From NCBI RefSeq assembly GCF_014138265.1, contig NZ_JACGXL010000004.1:186001-250000 (forward strand): a DNA stretch of 64,000 nucleotides, in the 5' to 3' direction. Under the pieces are notes generated by a model. It saw only the letters and a list, made by a program, of their open reading frames with translations, searched no databases and had not been told where the DNA came from. This stretch comes from Dokdonella fugitiva. Lineage in GTDB: Bacteria; Pseudomonadota; Gammaproteobacteria; Xanthomonadales; Rhodanobacteraceae. Shown one piece after another: positions 17,909 to 24,554 of this stretch (within the stretch, counting starts at the first letter, position 1; every line of letters starts with the position of its first letter). Made by a program: the position numbers and the translations under genes.

Positions 17909-18406
17909 CTACCGTTCGTCGCCCGCAGCGCGTCCCGCCTGCCGCGGCGCCGGGCGCAGCGGCCGCACGACGCGCTTGAGCTCGCTCCACAGCGCGCGCT
18001 TGGCCCGCGCATCGCCGGCGAGCACGGCCGGTTCGGCCGTGACGACCCAGCCGATCTCGCGCTGCCGCTGCGCGCTCAGCGCGGCGCCCGCGGCACGCGC
18101 CTGCGCGTCGCCGAACGCGACGAGTGCGCGCGCGGTGGCGAGCGTCGCCTCGTCGGCGTTGCCCGCCTGCGCGCAGTCGACGTGGGCGAACGCGAGCGCG
18201 CGCACGACCCCGGCGAGCAGGGCAGCGCCACGCGGGTTCGAAGCGTCGGCGAGCAGCAGCACGCCGCCGCCCGGCGCGGTCGCCGGCACAGGCGCGACGG
18301 CGGCCGGCTCATGCACGAGGTTCGCCCGCGGCGCGGGCGATGCCCCACGCGGCAGGTACACGTCGATGCCGATCTCGGCGAGCCGGTGCAGGTCGCGGTC
18401 ATCCAT
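17909..18406 (-). CDS. holD: Probable DNA polymerase III subunit psi
   Basis: The 165-residue protein opens LHRLAEIGIDVYLPRG, resembling the chi-binding N-terminus of E. coli psi (WQLQQLGITQWSLRRP), and ends with AVLAGDARAKRALWSELKRV, matching psi's conserved C-terminal helix pattern (LRANPTARAALWQQI). The middle has a VLLLADAS strand. Psi sequences diverge strongly, so the call rests on these end motifs, on size and on the position just upstream of rimI as in E. coli. It overlaps the preceding lipoprotein gene by eight bases. Confidence 0.65.
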   Translation of the reverse strand: MDDRDLHRLAEIGIDVYLPRGASPAPRANLVHEPAAVAPVPATAPGGGVLLLADASNPRGAALLAGVVRALAFAHVDCAQAGNADEATLATARALVAFGDAQARAAGAALSAQRQREIGWVVTAEPAVLAGDARAKRALWSELKRVVRPLRPAPRQAGRAAGDER

Positions 18407-19022
18407 GCCGCGGGCCTCCGCGCTGGCGCAGGTCGGCGTGGAACTGCGCGTAGATGCGGTCGAGCGCGGCGCCGTAGGCATCGACGGTCGACTTGATGTC
18501 GTTGCCCGCGGCCACCTCTTCCGCGCGGTAGTAGTCGTCGACGATCGGCCGGCCGTCGCGGCCGTCCGCGCGCAGCTTGAGCGCGACCACCGCGCTCCAG
18601 CCACCGGCGCCGCTCGGCACGCGGTCGAAGCGCAGGATGATGCCGCTGATGCGGATCGCCGGGTCGCTCGCGGGCAGTTCGTCGGTGACCTGTCCCGCGA
18701 TCTTCGATTCGCGCAGCTGCGCGATCAGGCGCCGCTGCAGGATGCGCGTCGGCGGGTCGGTCCAGAGCTGGTAGTGGTACTGGCGCAGCTGTTGTGCGCC
18801 CGGGTCGACCGCGTAGATGAGCGCCTGGTCCGCGTACAGGCCGTCGGCGCCGAATGCGTCGACGACGAGCGGCTCGTGGAACACCGGCGCCGGCGCCGCT
18901 TCGAGCGGTTGCGCGCGCGGCAGGCGGAAATACGTGAAATCGGGCACCGTCGGCGCGCCGCAGCCGGCGAGCGCGAGCGCGACGAGCAGGAGCGCCGGAC
19001 GGACCAGGTTCGATGTCCTCAT
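18399..19022 (-). CDS. ABC-type transport auxiliary lipoprotein (PqiC-like)
   Basis: The 207-residue product has a lipoprotein signal (LVALALAGC, lipidated Cys near residue 22) and the TYFRLPRAQP opening typical of the ABC_trans_aux/DUF330 group to which PqiC belongs. Such outer-membrane lipoproteins accompany MCE-type lipid transporters and are thought to help bridge the periplasm. Its ATG overlaps the MlaD-like gene by four bases, so it belongs to that transporter. It substitutes for the MlaA/MlaC partners of E. coli, which are absent here. Confidence 0.85.
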   Translation of the reverse strand: MRTSNLVRPALLLVALALAGCGAPTVPDFTYFRLPRAQPLEAAPAPVFHEPLVVDAFGADGLYADQALIYAVDPGAQQLRQYHYQLWTDPPTRILQRRLIAQLRESKIAGQVTDELPASDPAIRISGIILRFDRVPSGAGGWSAVVALKLRADGRDGRPIVDDYYRAEEVAAGNDIKSTVDAYGAALDRIYAQFHADLRQRGGPRHG

Positions 19023-19945
19023 TGCGGCTCTTCCTGCAGGTTGTCGGCCTTCGGCGCGAGGATCAGGCGGTTCGGATGGCTGCGGATCTCGCGGCTGAAC
19101 TCGTCGAGGTTGCGGCTCGACGATTCGAGGTGGTGCGTGATCACGTCCATGCGCGCCGACAGCGCGCCGAGCACGCTCGCGAGGTCCTGTACCGAACTGC
19201 GCACGTCGGGCCGGTTGTCCTTGGCGATGCCGGCGAGGTCGCCGAGCGCCTGGTCGAGCGTCGCGCGCGTCTTGCGCAGCTCCGCGCCGAGGTTCCTCAC
19301 CTCGCCGAGGATCGCGCCGACCGCGGCGCGGTTCTCCGGCTTGAGCAAGTCGTTGAGCGCATCGGACGCGTGGTTCGCGCGTTCGAGCAGCGCGCGCGTC
19401 TGCTCGAGGATCACCGGCGTGGTCTTGTCGATCGTGCCGGTGATCGAGTCGACGCGCTGCGACAACGTGGCGATCAGCGGCGAGATCTGCGTGCGCGTGA
19501 GCTCGCTGACCTGGCCGGCGAGCTCGTTCACCGCGGCGAAGATGTCGGCGCCCTCGATGCCCTTGAGTTCGCCGCCGGGCGCGAGCGTGTCGTGGCTCGC
19601 GCCTTCGCGGATGCCGATCGAGACGTCGGCGAGCAGTCCGCTCGACTGCAACCGCGCCGGGCTGTCGACCGGGATCGGCCAGTCGCGGCGGATCGACAGC
19701 ACCACCTTGTAGCGCGTGCCGTCGGCAGTGCGCTCGGGCGTGACCGCGCCGACCTGGCCGATGCGGTAGCCCTCGTAGAACACCGGCGCGCCGTAGCGCA
19801 GGCCGGTCACGTTGCGGTAGCGCACGAGGTAGTCGGTGCTCGCGACGCCCTTGCCGGTGATCAGCGCGAGCGCGACGAGCAGCAGCGCGATCGCGCCGAC
19901 GACGACCGCGCCGACCAGGGTGTAGTTGATGGTGTCGCGTTTCAT
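19019..19945 (-). CDS. MCE-domain (MlaD-like) substrate-binding protein of a lipid ABC transporter
   Basis: The 308-residue protein has one N-terminal transmembrane helix (residues about 8-28), an MCE domain at about 38-118 (VRYRNVTGLRYGAPVFYEGYRIG and later LLADVSIGI) and a long alpha-helical C-terminal part, longer than in E. coli MlaD (about 183 residues) and able to form a periplasmic tunnel or coiled-coil needle. The ATG at 19945 has AAGGGG upstream; farther upstream lies a REP hairpin. Together with the MlaE- and MlaF-like genes and the PqiC-like lipoprotein it should move phospholipids across the periplasm. Confidence 0.92.
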   Translation of the reverse strand: MKRDTINYTLVGAVVVGAIALLLVALALITGKGVASTDYLVRYRNVTGLRYGAPVFYEGYRIGQVGAVTPERTADGTRYKVVLSIRRDWPIPVDSPARLQSSGLLADVSIGIREGASHDTLAPGGELKGIEGADIFAAVNELAGQVSELTRTQISPLIATLSQRVDSITGTIDKTTPVILEQTRALLERANHASDALNDLLKPENRAAVGAILGEVRNLGAELRKTRATLDQALGDLAGIAKDNRPDVRSSVQDLASVLGALSARMDVITHHLESSSRNLDEFSREIRSHPNRLILAPKADNLQEEPQ

Positions 19946-19986
19946 CGATGGCGCCCCTTCACCCATCCCTGCATCGCAGCTTTCCT

Positions 19987-20061
19987 GTGGGAGCGGCGGA
20001 AGCCGCAATGCTCCTCGTCGGCATTCCGCGGCCGAAGCATCGCGGCTTCCGCCGCTCCCAC
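19987..20061. repeat. REP-type hairpin with 20-base perfect arms
   Basis: GTGGGAGCGGCGGAAGCCGC (19987-20006) is the exact complement of 20042-20061, around a 35-base loop that itself pairs partly (ATGCT/AGCAT). GTGGGAGCGGC...AGCCGC is the core of REP elements common in Pseudomonas and Xanthomonadaceae. It lies between the MlaF- and MlaD-like genes of one operon and may set relative mRNA levels. Confidence 0.85.
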
Positions 20062-20077
20062 GGGCAACCCGCGCATT

Positions 20078-20878
20078 CTAAGCTTCCTCCTCGGTCAGCC
20101 GCTTGAGGTACGCGTCGGCATCGACCTGCACTTCGCGCGGGCGCCGGTTCAACAGGTCCTGGATGCGCTCGTTGTCGCTCGCGCGCACCGCCGCGACCGT
20201 GCCGGTGGTGAGGATGTTGCCCTGGTCGAGCACGGTGATCGTGTCGGCGATCTTGAACGCGCTCTCGAGTTCGTGCGTGACGACGACGATCGTCATGCGC
20301 AGCGCGTCGCGCAGGCGCAGGATCAGCTCGTCGAGCTCGGCCGACACGACCGGATCGAGCCCGGCCGACGGCTCGTCGAAGAACAGCAGGCGCGGATCCA
20401 TCACGATCGCGCGCGCGAGCGCCGCGCGCTTGACCATGCCGCCCGAGAGCTGGCTCGGCATGAGGTCCTGGAAACCGCCGAGGTTGACCACCTCGAGCTT
20501 GAGCCGGCTCATGATGCGGATCGTCGACTCGTCGAGCGTCGTGTGTTCGCGCAGCGGCAGCGCGACGTTCTCGCCGACGGTGAGCGAAGTCAGCAATGCG
20601 CCGCCCTGGAACGACACGCCGATGCGCTTGCGCACGTCGAGCAGTGCGCGTTCGCTCGCCTCGCGGAGGTCGACGCCGAACAGCTTCACGCGCCCGGACA
20701 CCGGCCGTTGCAGGCCGAGCAGGTGGCGCAGCAGGGTGCTCTTGCCCGAGCCGGAACCCCCCATGATCACGCGGATCTCGCCCGCGTTGACCGCGAAGTC
20801 GACTCCGTGCAGCACGCGCCGGCGGCCGTACCAGGCCTCGAGCTGCTCGACTTCGATGAGTGGCACGGGAGCGTTCAT
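20078..20878 (-). CDS. Lipid ABC transporter ATP-binding protein (MlaF-like)
   Basis: The 266-residue ATPase has Walker A GGSGSGKST near residues 40-48, the Q-loop FQGGALLTSLTV, the ABC signature QLSGGMVKRAALARAI, Walker B LLFFDEPSAGLDP and the H-loop VVTHELES. The FQGGALL and LSGGM sequences are typical of MlaF/Ttg2A, which powers phospholipid transport with MlaE, MlaD and a STAS protein (MlaB) that binds MlaF. It starts one base after the permease stop. The C-terminal extension after residue 235 may contact the partner subunit, as in E. coli. Confidence 0.95.
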   Translation of the reverse strand: MNAPVPLIEVEQLEAWYGRRRVLHGVDFAVNAGEIRVIMGGSGSGKSTLLRHLLGLQRPVSGRVKLFGVDLREASERALLDVRKRIGVSFQGGALLTSLTVGENVALPLREHTTLDESTIRIMSRLKLEVVNLGGFQDLMPSQLSGGMVKRAALARAIVMDPRLLFFDEPSAGLDPVVSAELDELILRLRDALRMTIVVVTHELESAFKIADTITVLDQGNILTTGTVAAVRASDNERIQDLLNRRPREVQVDADAYLKRLTEEEA

Positions 20879-20879
20879 G

Positions 20880-21677
20880 TCATCGGTTCAGGAAGAACGA
20901 GAACACCATGTCGACCACGATGATCCAGCAGATCGACAGCACGACCGAGCGCGTCGTCGCGCGGCCGACGCCCTCGGCGCCGCCGCTCACGGAGAAGCCG
21001 GTGCTCACGCCGATCAGGGTGATCAGCACGGCGAACACGACGCTCTTCGACAGACCCTGCCAAAGGTCGCCGGTCGACAGCAACGACATCGTCTGCAGCA
21101 GGTATGCAGTCGGCGTCACGTTGAGCGCGGGTGCGCTGTACAGCGCGGCACCGAAGATCGCGACCGCGTTGGCGAAGATCGTGAGCGCGGGCAGCATCAC
21201 GAGCATCGCGACGAGCGCGGGCGCGACGAGGTAGCGCACGGGTTCGATGCCGATCACCGCGAGCGCGTCGACCTCCTGCGACACCGACATCGAGCCGATG
21301 CGCGCGGCGAGCGCGGAGCCGGAGCGACCCGCGACGAGGATCGCGGTGATCAGCGCGCCGAACTCGCGCGTGACCGACTTCGCGACCGCGACGACGACCT
21401 GCGACTGCGCACCGAACTCCGACAGCGAGGCGATGAACTGGATGCCGAGCATGAGCCCGACCGTGAACCCCAGCAGCGCGACGATCGGCAGCGCGTTCGC
21501 GCCGATCTCGCGCATCTGCCGCGCGACCGCGGCGATGCGCACCGGCTGGCCGATGCGCCAACCCGCGAACACGTAGTAGCACGCTTCGAGCAGCAACATC
21601 GCCGCGTAGCCGACACCGGCGAACGCGCCGAGCGTGGCGCGGCCGAGGTCGCCGAGCGGGCGCGCGAGCGCGTTCAC
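20880..21677 (-). CDS. Lipid ABC transporter permease (MlaE-like)
   Basis: The 265-residue protein has five to six transmembrane helices and MlaE family landmarks: LPIVALLGFTVGLMLGIQ, REFGALITAILVAGRSGSA, then EVDALAVIGIEPVRYLVAPR-like sequence. It is the inner-membrane core of the lipid transporter. The start is a GTG at 21677 that overlaps the STAS stop (GTGA), with GGAAG further upstream. The overlap means permease and STAS translation are coupled. Confidence 0.93.
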   Translation of the reverse strand: MNALARPLGDLGRATLGAFAGVGYAAMLLLEACYYVFAGWRIGQPVRIAAVARQMREIGANALPIVALLGFTVGLMLGIQFIASLSEFGAQSQVVVAVAKSVTREFGALITAILVAGRSGSALAARIGSMSVSQEVDALAVIGIEPVRYLVAPALVAMLVMLPALTIFANAVAIFGAALYSAPALNVTPTAYLLQTMSLLSTGDLWQGLSKSVVFAVLITLIGVSTGFSVSGGAEGVGRATTRSVVLSICWIIVVDMVFSFFLNR

Positions 21678-22015
21678 GCGGCGAGCAGCGCTTCCGCGCT
21701 CGGCACGAGCAGGAACACGCGGTCGAGCCGTGCGAGTTCGAGCACCGCGCGCACCGCGTCGCTGACCGCGACGAGCGCGAAGCGGCCGCCGTTCTGCCGC
21801 GCCTGCTGGAAGCCCTCGACGAGCGCGGCGATGCCGGACGAGTCGATGTAGCTGACCGCGGACAATTCGACGCCGACCGGCGTGCCCGCAGCGAGCGCAT
21901 CGAGCACCGCGCGGCGCACTTCCTGCGACCAGGACAGGTCGACCTCGCCGCTGAGGCGGACCAGCACGTAACCGTCGCCGCGTTCGGCGGCGACCCCATT
22001 CGGTGACACGCTCAT
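21674..22015 (-). CDS. STAS-domain protein (anti-sigma-factor antagonist / MlaB-like)
   Basis: The 113-residue protein is a single STAS domain: VLVRLSGEVDLSWSQEVR, then SAVSYIDSSGIAALVEGFQ with the DSSG serines (59-60) that are phosphorylated in SpoIIAA/RsbV, and ALVAVSDAVRAVLELARLD. It could serve as MlaB, which binds the transporter ATPase, or as a partner-switch antagonist, or both. The start overlaps the phosphatase/kinase gene by four bases and its stop overlaps the permease start, placing it exactly between regulator and transporter. Confidence 0.92.
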   Translation of the reverse strand: MSVSPNGVAAERGDGYVLVRLSGEVDLSWSQEVRRAVLDALAAGTPVGVELSAVSYIDSSGIAALVEGFQQARQNGGRFALVAVSDAVRAVLELARLDRVFLLVPSAEALLAA

Positions 22016-23760
22016 GCCTCGTTCGCCTCCCCGGCGATGTCTTCGATGCGTTTGTGCATGACCAGGCGATTGCCGCGGCGGCCCGCGAGCGGCTCGACGC
22101 GCCAGTCGTCCATGACCTCGTCGATCAGCGCGATGCCGAAGCCGCCGCAGCGCATCTCGCCGAGCGGCTTGGGCCGCAGCGCGGCCGGATCCGCGCACGG
22201 CGCGGTGTCGCGCAGTTCGAACGCGAGCGTCGTGCCGTTGCGCGCGAGGCACAGCTCGATGTCGCCGTCGCAGGACTGGCCGTAGCCGTGCCGGATGATG
22301 TTCGCGCATGCTTCGTCGACCGCGAGCACGAGCTTGTCGCGCAGTCGCGGCTCGACGCCGAGCGCATCGAGCGCCGCGCGCACCGCGCCGCGCAGTTCGC
22401 GCAGCGATTCGGCGCGCGCGGGCACGCGCAGGTCGACCAGCCGTTCGGGCTGCTCGGCGCGCGGCGCCTCGACCAGCAGCAGGGTGGTGTCGTCGACGAG
22501 GCGCAGCTGCTTGAGGTCGGCGAGCAGGCTGCGCAGGCGCGGCTCGAGCGACTCCTTCGCATGGCGCGCGATCAGCGCGCGCACGCCGGCGTTGCCGATC
22601 GGCCGGCCCTGCGCGTCGCGCACGTCCGTCGCGCCGTCGGAGAACGCGTAGAAGGTGCCGCCGGCGAGCGCGAGTTCGCGCTGCTCGAACGCGACGCCGG
22701 GCAGGATGCCGAGCGGCGGGCCGCCCGATGGGTATTCGTCGAACGCGTCGCCGCGCTGCACGATCACCGGCGGGAAGCCCGCGCCGGCGAAGCGCACGCG
22801 CGTCGCCGCGCGGTCGCAGTAGCCCACCAGCGCGCAGACGAAGCGACCGTCCTGGGTCGTCTCGCACAGTTCGTCGTTCGCACGCGAGAGCCAGGCGGCC
22901 GGCTCGATGCCGTCCTTGCCGGCCCAGCGCAGCAGGCTCGCCGCGCGCACCATCAGCAGCGCCGCGTCGAGGCCCTTGCCCGAGATGTCGCCGACGACGA
23001 AACCGATGCGACCGTCGGCGAGTTCGAAGTGGTCGTAGAAGTCGCCGGAGATCTCGTGCGCGGGACGATTCACGCCGATCACCGGGAAGCCGTCGCGACG
23101 GCGGTGCGGCAACAGCGATTTCTGCAGCCGGCGCGCAAGGTCGAACTCGCGCTTGAGGCGCTGCTGCTCGAGCAGGCTCGCGGCCATGCGCGCGCTGTTG
23201 ATCGCGAGCGCGGCCGGCGCGGCGACGAGTTCGAGCAGCTCGGCGTCGGCCGCCGAAAACGGCGTGCCGTCGCGCCGGTTGACGATCTCGAGCACGCCGA
23301 TCGGGCCCGCCGCGGTGCGCAGCGGCGCGCAGACGAGGCTGTGCGTGACGAAGCCGGTGCTGTCGTCGGCGGCGCGCCAGACGCGCGGGTCGTCCGCGGC
23401 GTCGACGACGAGCTGGGTCGCGTTCTCGGCGACCGCGCTGCCGACGATGCCCTGGCCGACCGCGAGCCGCACGCCGGTGATGTCGACCGGGCCGATGCAG
23501 ATGCGGCAGTCGAGCACGAGCGTGGCCGGGTCGAGCAGGAACAGCGAAGCGGCCTCGACCTGCATGAAGTCGACCACGCGCGTGACCGTCTCCGACAGCG
23601 TCTGGCGCAGGTCGAGCGAAACCGCGAGGGCTTGCGACAGCTCGGCGAGGAAGGCGAGCGTGCCCGCCTCGCCCGCGCGCGGATCGGTCGCGGGGCGCTG
23701 CGCCGCGCGCGCGTGGCCCGCGGTGCGCGCGCCGGCGGAGCGGGCGCGCAGCGCCTTCAT
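22012..23760 (-). CDS. GAF - SpoIIE/PP2C phosphatase - HATPase anti-sigma-kinase fusion protein
   Basis: The 582-residue protein combines a GAF sensor (about 40-195), a helical linker, a SpoIIE-type PP2C phosphatase (about 225-432, with acidic metal residues in HEISGDFYDHF, VVGDISGKGLDAA, FSDGATDV and VDDTTLLL) and a GHKL ATPase of RsbW type (about 450-575, N box AVDEACANIIRHGYG at 481-494, G box FGIALIDEVMDDW). Families of this build phosphorylate and dephosphorylate STAS proteins in partner switching. The STAS gene follows with a four-base overlap. No transmembrane segment is seen. Its start overlaps the pssA stop. Confidence 0.93.
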   Translation of the reverse strand: MKALRARSAGARTAGHARAAQRPATDPRAGEAGTLAFLAELSQALAVSLDLRQTLSETVTRVVDFMQVEAASLFLLDPATLVLDCRICIGPVDITGVRLAVGQGIVGSAVAENATQLVVDAADDPRVWRAADDSTGFVTHSLVCAPLRTAAGPIGVLEIVNRRDGTPFSAADAELLELVAAPAALAINSARMAASLLEQQRLKREFDLARRLQKSLLPHRRRDGFPVIGVNRPAHEISGDFYDHFELADGRIGFVVGDISGKGLDAALLMVRAASLLRWAGKDGIEPAAWLSRANDELCETTQDGRFVCALVGYCDRAATRVRFAGAGFPPVIVQRGDAFDEYPSGGPPLGILPGVAFEQRELALAGGTFYAFSDGATDVRDAQGRPIGNAGVRALIARHAKESLEPRLRSLLADLKQLRLVDDTTLLLVEAPRAEQPERLVDLRVPARAESLRELRGAVRAALDALGVEPRLRDKLVLAVDEACANIIRHGYGQSCDGDIELCLARNGTTLAFELRDTAPCADPAALRPKPLGEMRCGGFGIALIDEVMDDWRVEPLAGRRGNRLVMHKRIEDIAGEANEA

Positions 23761-24554
23761 CCCTCGCCCTTCCCGGAACCGCGCGAAGCGCGCTCGCTGC
23801 GCTTGCGGCGCAGGCCCCAGAGCGTCATCACCGGCCCGGACATCACGTACAGCACGGCGATGCCGAACAGCACGCGCGGCGGATCGACCGCGAGCGCGAC
23901 GAGGATCAGCATCGCCGCGGGGATCCAGATGAACGGCACGCGGTCCGACTTCGGCCAGGCCTTGAAGCTGAAATAGCGCACCCGGCTGACCATGAGCAGG
24001 CCGGCGACGATGGCGACGACCGGTGTCACGAAGTCCATCTCGCTCGCCTTGAGGCCGAGCCCGCCCGACTCGATCGCCCAGACGAACGACATGCACAGGC
24101 CGGCCGCGGCGGGGCTCGCGAGGCCCTGGAAATAGCGCTTGTCGGCGACGCCGACCTGGGTATTGAAGCGCGCGAGGCGCAGCGCGGCGCAGGCCGCGTA
24201 GATGAACGCGGCCGCCCAACCGAGCTTGCCCCAACCCGAACCGTAGGTCTTCAGCGCCGACAGCGACCACGTATAGAGCACGAGCGCGGGGGCGAGCCCG
24301 AAGCTGACGAGGTCGGACAGCGAGTCGTACTGCACCCCGAAATCGCTCTGCGTACCGGTCAGGCGCGCCACGCGCCCGTCGAGGCCGTCGAGGATGCCGG
24401 CCACGAACACGGCGACGGCCGCCTCCGTGTAGCGGCCGCCGATGCCGGCGATGATCGCGTAGAAACCCGCGAACATCGCGCCGGTCGTGAACAGGTTCGG
24501 CAGCAGGTAGATACCGCGCGGCGGTTTGCGCGCGCCGGTCGAGGGAGCTTCCAT
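23757..24554 (-). CDS. pssA: CDP-diacylglycerol-serine O-phosphatidyltransferase
   Basis: The 265-residue integral membrane enzyme makes phosphatidylserine, precursor of phosphatidylethanolamine. It starts with IYLLPNLFTTGAMFAGFYAI and carries the CDP-alcohol phosphotransferase motif spread over DGRVAR, G and two Asp (DFGVQYDSLSD) at about residues 59-81. Six or so transmembrane helices follow. It is first in a nine-gene minus-strand string leading to a lipid transporter. A TACACT box at 24590-24595 on the minus strand may be its -10 element. Confidence 0.95.
   Translation of the reverse strand: MEAPSTGARKPPRGIYLLPNLFTTGAMFAGFYAIIAGIGGRYTEAAVAVFVAGILDGLDGRVARLTGTQSDFGVQYDSLSDLVSFGLAPALVLYTWSLSALKTYGSGWGKLGWAAAFIYAACAALRLARFNTQVGVADKRYFQGLASPAAAGLCMSFVWAIESGGLGLKASEMDFVTPVVAIVAGLLMVSRVRYFSFKAWPKSDRVPFIWIPAAMLILVALAVDPPRVLFGIAVLYVMSGPVMTLWGLRRKRSERASRGSGKGEG

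Follow-up and report, generated by a model that had tools for sequence, protein, structure and literature searches.

A seven-gene operon in a 64,000-nucleotide stretch of bacterial DNA (the window, on contig NZ_JACGXL010000004.1) places the genes of a partner switch, which in other bacteria ordinarily control transcription, among those of an ABC transporter that carries phospholipids between the two membranes. Judged by comparison with its counterparts in other genomes, it is probable that the switch gates the ATPase of this envelope-spanning transporter: the STAS protein would be a switchable form of MlaB, phosphorylation of its Ser59 would release the ATPase MlaF, and the phosphatase would restore the contact. 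Partner switching of this kind is the mechanism of RsbU-RsbV-RsbW and SpoIIE-SpoIIAA-SpoIIAB in Bacillus subtilis. The gene order, the domains, the conserved catalytic and acceptor residues, the deep conservation of the arrangement and the co-segregation of the switch genes with one type of MlaF are all seen directly; the pattern, spread across many bacterial families, suggests that the switch genes turn the transporter ATPase on and off.

The operon lies on the minus strand and reads pssA, a gene for a fused GAF-PP2C-HATPase protein, STAS, MlaE, MlaF, MlaD and a lipoprotein gene (Table 1). The original prediction had described 4-base overlaps at the pssA/fused gene, fused gene/STAS and STAS/MlaE junctions and a gap of one base between MlaE and MlaF, and the coordinates confirm all of these. 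The operon runs two genes past MlaF, into the long MlaD and then the lipoprotein, which overlap by 4 bases. In the fused protein the GAF domain occupies approximately residues 49-187, the PP2C (SpoIIE) domain residues 249-431 and an RsbW-like HATPase_c_2 domain residues 446-570; the closest named relative found is Dokdonella fugitiva, whose fused protein is 93% identical.

The residues expected of a partner switch are present in all three of its activities. As predicted, the STAS protein is of the DSSG type: DSSG forms residues 58-61, with Ser59, within YIDSSG, as the predicted phosphoacceptor. The motif is found in 97 of 97 distinct module STAS domains aligned, and its loop aligns by profile with the same loop of SpoIIAA. 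This set of 97 contains eight domains from genomes with the kinase gene elsewhere; outside it stand the domain of locus L287, which also has DSSG, and another 24 STAS domains, which lie close to more remote SpoIIE proteins and mostly have ISSAG, not DSSG. Across 109 aligned rows of the HATPase domain, the catalytic residues are E in 109, N in 107, H in 107 and D in 109, and the G-box glycines are kept in 107, 103 and 107. The N and G boxes of the kinase are intact in nearly all rows; exceptions include genome G179 (Y for H) and L149/L298 (several lost). Among 125 rows of the PP2C domain, the conserved aspartates, which are metal ligands, are found in 124 (GD of GDFYD), 115 (second D of GDFYD), 124 (VGD), 124 (SDG) and 119 (DD); the PP2C and kinase alignment includes loci seen twice, partial rows and some non-module proteins. 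The GAF-PP2C-HATPase protein of L149/L298 (G311:C94) lacks the N-box Asn and the G-box glycines and is likely a dead kinase; the same genome has an intact module (L228).

The phosphatase and kinase form a single protein in some lineages and are encoded by two neighbouring genes in others. The input domain also varies, being GAF here and HDOD in four of four other proteins scanned with Pfam; HDOD in further proteins was assigned by N-terminal resemblance, and a receiver-like domain in L287 by resemblance only. In several class genomes that have a linked module, another GAF-PP2C protein is encoded away from STAS (L293-L297); it may serve that STAS protein as an additional phosphatase input. RsbV has two such inputs, RsbU and RsbP.

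The original prediction called for conserved adjacency of GAF-SpoIIE-HATPase genes with STAS and mlaE, and this was found at both taxonomic levels searched. Within the family, 22 of 97 genomes contain a full-length orthologue of the fused protein (>640 bits), with STAS and MlaE downstream in 22/22 loci and a kinase gene/STAS overlap of 4 bases in 21/22; the spacing between STAS and MlaE is variable. A separate query of 369 class genomes with an MlaE alignment gave 46 matches of at least 275 bits, followed by a gap down to 199 bits. A PP2C or HATPase match lies within 4 kb of 42 of the 46 high-scoring MlaE genes and of none of the next 54 matches listed; the count covers these 46 and 54 listed matches, and the 275-bit line was chosen after the score gap had been seen. 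Most of the 54 lower matches are in open reading frames (ORFs) of about 370-460 amino acids, and 18 of the 20 fetched have STAS in the same frame. A chance neighbourhood was rejected on the family and class counts. Outside the class, the module occurs in Dongia deserti, in a Rhodospirillum metagenome-assembled genome (MAG) and in a Proteobacteria MAG, and with a low score in a Lindowbacteria MAG (L095), which has a long branch in both the MlaE and the MlaF tree, no MlaF motif and no lipoprotein match. The gene linkage is, on this distribution, evidently old.

Starting from the switch proteins, 70 class genomes have a PP2C or HATPase match at 1e-30, and the system is present in 58 of them. The other 12 (G108, G124, G164, G175, G183, G201, G202, G263, G307, G345, G410 and G417) were set aside as having unrelated-looking SpoIIE proteins, three of their loci having been inspected (L241, L242 and L284). 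A single fetched locus contains kinase, STAS and PP2C in 53 of the 58, and in one (G280) the parts are at contig ends. By transporter, the 58 divide into 42 in which the switch genes are beside this MlaE type, G189, in which the locus is split, 11 in which their neighbour is a module-type MlaF, a canonical-type MlaE or both (G118, G141, G179, G249, G266, G275, G282, G292, G360, G402 and G456), and four that are unlinked (G139, G215, G280 and G439), each with a module-type MlaF-MlaE-MlaD operon elsewhere.

The permease varies, and this points to MlaF as the partner of the switch. In several families the switch genes adjoin canonical MlaE, MlaD, MlaA and MlaC and MlaB is missing, but MlaF belongs to the module clade; the order in L237, for example, is HDOD-PP2C, HATPase, STAS, MlaF, MlaE, short MlaD, MlaA, MlaC. 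A STAS profile that detects MlaB in 21/21 control loci finds the switch STAS alone in L237, L239, L240, L285, L287, L292 and L301, and has no match in the unlinked MlaF-MlaE-MlaD operons L305-L309, L317 and L318. In G118 and G266 (L223 and L224) STAS is followed by MlaF alone, and MlaE-MlaD-MlaA-MlaC, the last two named by resemblance, are found elsewhere without MlaF or MlaB. The canonical side of the MlaE tree takes in seven such loci (100/100), and the same seven fall inside the module clade of the MlaF tree (95/83), apart from canonical MlaF (100/100); the bootstrap of the MlaF tree was not settled, and the tree includes three fusion-type MlaF. The kinase, phosphatase and STAS are, therefore, inherited with MlaF whichever MlaE is present, as a partnership of MlaF with STAS would predict. 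In the MlaE tree, in which Brucella was not placed, the fused STAS-MlaE proteins of class genomes group as a separate clade.

The C-terminus of MlaF follows the same division. The motif Y[LMI]xxL is present in 43/44 module loci (the exception is L095) and in 7/7 further loci with module-type MlaF, including those with canonical MlaE, versus 2/21 MlaB controls, 20/21 of which have a DGPVPF-type motif. Neither motif occurs in three fusion systems, and Y[LMI]xxL is in one of two kinase-free module-type MlaF. In passages of the 2020 study of E. coli MlaFEDB (PMC7367683), the C-terminal extension of MlaF puts Tyr261, Leu265 and Leu266 between MlaB and the neighbouring MlaF, and MlaB binds MlaF and is needed for assembly.

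Two arrangements of MlaF stand apart. In L239, L240 and L292, from one family, MlaF is convergent to STAS-MlaE-MlaD-MlaA-MlaC at the far end of the cluster and keeps the module-type C-terminus. In L204/L311 and L227 a chimeric MlaE-MlaF-MlaD-lipoprotein set is followed by canonical-type MlaE-MlaD-MlaA, with no second MlaF or MlaB match in the stretch; here one MlaF may serve two permeases.

We propose that the transporter would span the envelope, from the MlaE permease and MlaF ATPase through a tube of long MlaD to the PqiC-like outer-membrane lipoprotein. Unphosphorylated STAS would bind MlaF through its helical face and would be needed for the assembled, active transporter. The RsbW-like HATPase would phosphorylate Ser59; since this residue is at the centre of the face predicted to bind MlaF, phospho-STAS would leave MlaF, or bind it unproductively, and transport would stop. 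Both the HATPase and MlaF probably dock on that face of STAS, in competition with each other. The PP2C domain, under the control of GAF (HDOD in other lineages), would strip the phosphate and turn transport on. The phosphorylation of STAS, the sign of its effect, the signal sensed and the direction of lipid transport are what we infer from sequence comparison, and the sign is the least certain step. In the original prediction the switch gated phospholipid transport; its core, HATPase, PP2C and STAS aimed at MlaF, is strongly supported by comparison, and its transporter type and general link to pssA required correction.

That link was the further claim that the switch ties transport to phospholipid synthesis, and the gene association behind it is a feature of certain lineages. 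The pssA gene is upstream in 21/22 family loci, and the 22nd (L020) begins at a contig edge. It is also beside the kinase gene in eight Marinicella-like loci in which STAS and MlaE are elsewhere. Among 51 further kinase-STAS loci scanned, some with a short stretch upstream, it is in four (L078, L080, L083 and L299), a count that excludes the named loci near the window family (L057-L077, L079 and L094). A general pssA link was rejected, since 47 of the 51 have no match; if transport is tied directly to phosphatidylserine synthesis at all, this is no more than a trait of certain lineages. It is doubtful that the switch couples lipid transport to the synthesis of phosphatidylserine and phosphatidylethanolamine through pssA, even with the 4-base overlap seen here.

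Several findings weigh against the proposed gating of MlaF. One concerns its sign, which is unreadable from sequence. In passages of the 2016 eLife paper (PMC5016091), E. coli T52A leaves MlaB bound to MlaF but abolishes ATPase activity; the hydroxyl may, therefore, be needed for catalysis. The same switch could, thus, work with opposite sign or chemistry, phospho-STAS being the active form or the HATPase mainly sequestering STAS. We consider this unlikely, as the phosphomimetic T52E of E. coli MlaB weakens binding and lowers MlaF pull-down (passages of PMC7367683), and as the catalytic residues of the kinase are nearly invariant.

A second concerns the kind of STAS protein. It scores 28.6 bits against the NCBIfam MlaB model, with a cut-off of 90, and passes the NCBIfam anti-sigma antagonist model (74.7 versus a cut-off of 53.45). 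Its AlphaFold model (predicted local distance difference test score, pLDDT, 91.5) has TM1442, SpoIIAA and RsbV as its closest folds in the PDB, with template modelling (TM) scores of about 0.8 to SpoIIAA and RsbV versus about 0.57-0.67 to MlaB. The protein, therefore, looks like an anti-sigma antagonist that accompanies a transporter. Together with a domain make-up equal to that of RsbU, RsbW and RsbV, this could mean a conventional partner switch whose sigma factor is encoded elsewhere, with the HATPase as anti-sigma factor and STAS as antagonist, merely co-transcribed with the transporter. Such an arrangement is quite unlikely, because the switch genes track one MlaF type through different transporter backgrounds and because canonical-type Mla operons that adjoin them are without MlaB. 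In the genome of the window, moreover, each of the three MlaE systems accounts for one of the three STAS_2 domains, as counted with the STAS_2 model rather than the broader STAS model PF01740; of the two further systems, one is canonical with MlaB (C7) and one has a STAS-MlaE fusion. The same genome has a single clear RsbW-like HATPase_c_2 match of 91 bits, the next being 37. The alternative offered in the original prediction, that STAS also serves a sigma-factor pathway, found no support: no sigma-factor family is among the 25 commonest of the 146 Pfam families matched in the flanking ORFs (80 of the 141 collected).

A third concerns the acceptor itself. Ser is at that position in 21/21 MlaB controls as well, there followed by Ala, so the residue alone proves nothing about phosphorylation; among 18 aligned rows of STAS-MlaE fusions (20 loci were fetched, two of them without an aligned STAS row) the position holds Ser in 7, Thr in 8 and another residue in 3. 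Ser59 by itself was, therefore, rejected as evidence of phosphorylation. That STAS is a constitutive MlaB-type assembly subunit, and that the kinase and phosphatase act on something else, would accord with this retention of Ser by canonical MlaB without a linked kinase, but is very improbable given that kinase and STAS share one fetched locus in 57/58 class genomes and that the sole module STAS profile match is beside MlaE in 8/8 genomes with an unlinked kinase.

The last concern the completeness of the linkage. Kinase and STAS occur without a PP2C match in the fetched locus in G101, G260, G381 and G439. Genomes G162 and G398 are genuine exceptions: their gene for this MlaE type has neither STAS nor a kinase at its locus, and a search at 1e-30 gave no PP2C or HATPase match anywhere in either genome. 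In G179 no STAS lies upstream of the gene for this MlaE type, and the switch triad adjoins a canonical-type MlaE. The MlaF proteins of G162 and of this G179 locus without STAS still group in the module clade; the transporter can, therefore, exist without the switch, and the link is not absolute.

Other apparent exceptions did not break the rule. Eight Marinicella-like genomes, two of them named Marinicella, have pssA and GAF-PP2C-HATPase without an adjoining STAS or MlaE match, and in 8/8 there is exactly one module STAS profile match, followed by MlaE and MlaF; in two Marinicella genomes a wider Pfam model gives a second STAS_2 domain, in a long ORF (541 and 563 amino acids). Like these, G118/G266, G139, G280, G215 and G439 keep STAS-MlaE or a module-type MlaF elsewhere. 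Of the four unlinked high-scoring MlaE cases, G189 is split over two contigs (L233 and L300); the other three are G179, G162 and G398.

Two side observations belong to these loci. In L230, L229, L288 and L299 kinase and STAS are found without a PP2C match in the stretch, with the transporter adjoining in three and elsewhere for L288; their phosphatase may be encoded at another place or belong to a different kind. A possible further component is a gene of about 140-150 amino acids, which we take to be DUF1841-like; it immediately precedes the kinase-free MlaE of G162/G398, the GAF-PP2C gene of G215 and the kinase gene of G260 (L231, L232, L283 and L230).

The transporter was described in the original prediction as belonging to an Mla-type operon. 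The genes of an MCE lipid transporter are indeed present, but of another type, and the two downstream genes, of which the lipoprotein had been omitted, extend the operon. Canonical Mla systems have a short MlaD, and MlaC and MlaB with the transporter genes, whereas in this operon MlaD is long, a PqiC-like lipoprotein is encoded and both MlaC and MlaA are absent, and its proteins reach none of the NCBIfam cut-offs for MlaF, MlaE, MlaD and MlaB. A canonical operon was rejected on these grounds. The combination of MlaE, MlaF, an elongated MlaD and a PqiC-family lipoprotein, with no MlaC in the operon, is that of the Mla-Pqi chimeric (Mpc) type; the long MlaD and the lipoprotein, therefore, assign the operon to this architecture, from which it departs in that STAS is a separate protein of 113 amino acids and not fused to the permease.

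Two gene assignments need comment. PssA is barely above the cut-off of its NCBIfam equivalog model (107.5 bits versus 107), and the listed TTG start of MlaD at 20008 is upstream of a likelier ATG (gene 19945-19019). Between mlaF and mlaD is a strong hairpin, made of a word with 148 matches in the genome (at most two mismatches), versus 33 for a reversed control. Many listed copies of the word are paired in opposite orientation, resembling repetitive extragenic palindromic (REP) elements or bacterial interspersed mosaic elements (BIME). The hairpin may fix the relative amounts of transcript upstream and downstream of it. A promoter and terminator scan gave no promoter-like site and one terminator-like site, versus 2.2 expected.

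Table 1. Genes of the operon and the intergenic hairpin, in order of transcription (window coordinates).
Feature	Coordinates	Strand	Basis
pssA, CDP-diacylglycerol--serine O-phosphatidyltransferase; first operon gene in this lineage	23757..24554	-	Pfam CDP-OH_P_transf; NCBIfam TIGR00473
Fused sensor-phosphatase-kinase, 582 amino acids	22012..23760	-	Pfam GAF, SpoIIE (130 bits) and HATPase_c_2 (88 bits)
STAS protein, 113 amino acids; proposed switchable MlaB-like subunit	21674..22015	-	Pfam STAS; AlphaFold model
MlaE-type permease, GTG start	20880..21677	-	Pfam MlaE, 230 bits
MlaF-type ATPase, proposed switch target; C-terminal extension ending VDADAYLKRLTEEEA	20078..20878	-	Pfam ABC_tran
Strong hairpin between mlaF and mlaD	19987..20061	-	Fold z-score -8.7; two opposed copies of a word repeated genome-wide
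Long MlaD, 308 amino acids; one MCE domain and a long C-terminal region	19019..19945	-	Pfam MlaD; under the NCBIfam MlaD equivalog cut-off
PqiC-like lipoprotein (ABC_trans_aux); last operon gene	18399..19022	-	Pfam ABC_trans_aux

With the two B. subtilis switches named above, the system shares a PP2C phosphatase, a HATPase kinase, a STAS protein with a D-S-[ST]-G loop and a sensor on the phosphatase; it differs in that phosphatase and kinase are fused and the proposed output is an ATP-binding cassette (ABC) ATPase, not a sigma factor. In Vibrio fischeri SypE-SypA, as described in passages of PMC8256260 and PMC4517449, one protein likewise has serine kinase and phosphatase activities for a STAS protein, which is active unphosphorylated, as proposed here; the output there, however, is biofilm formation, the target of SypA is given as unknown, and linkage to a transporter is not mentioned in those passages. 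The Mpc system of Brucella abortus (passages of PMC12436622) has MlaE- and MlaF-like proteins, a PqiC-like lipoprotein, no MlaC in the operon and a long MlaD of 331 amino acids; its STAS, however, is fused to the permease and those passages mention no kinase or phosphatase, in contrast to the free STAS linked to both here. E. coli MlaFEDB (passages of PMC7367683 and PMC5016091) shares MlaE, MlaF, an MCE protein and a STAS protein with a hydroxyl residue at the acceptor position, and by analogy STAS here would be expected to bind the helical subdomain and C-terminal extension of MlaF. Those passages name neither a kinase nor a phosphatase that acts on MlaB, and the STAS here is nearer to anti-sigma antagonists. 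The operon of the window also differs from MlaFEDB in its order (STAS-E-F-D-lipoprotein), in having no MlaC or MlaA and in the C-terminal motif of its MlaF.

Control of MlaB by phosphorylation was hypothesised in the 2016 eLife paper (PMC5016091) and left open in 2020 (PMC7367683); both point out the SpoIIAA-like residue of MlaB, and their passages name no kinase. Among open-licence PMC papers, in titles and the starts of abstracts, we found none that connects SpoIIE or HATPase proteins to the STAS proteins of Mla systems. In 2023, a phylogenomic study of Mla sought MlaB by the NCBI model NF033618 in synteny (passages of PMC10665443); as the STAS protein scores far below the cut-off of this model, such a search may have missed the module STAS.

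The loci put forward a kinase and a phosphatase as dedicated candidates, linked genetically through many families to a single type of ATPase, and the question of MlaB phosphorylation, therefore, becomes testable in a system that is simple and non-pathogenic. We think it fairly likely that anti-sigma/anti-anti-sigma machinery has been recast as a dedicated phosphorylation gate of an ABC-transporter ATPase, that sensor-PP2C, HATPase kinase, STAS and MlaF form a heritable cassette used with different lipid permeases, with one switchable MlaF perhaps serving two permeases in some genomes, and that ordinary MlaB is the kinase-free form. If this is true, partner switching would extend to the direct gating of a transporter ATPase, and outer-membrane lipid homeostasis would come under rapid control at the post-translational level, with GAF or HDOD domains as input.

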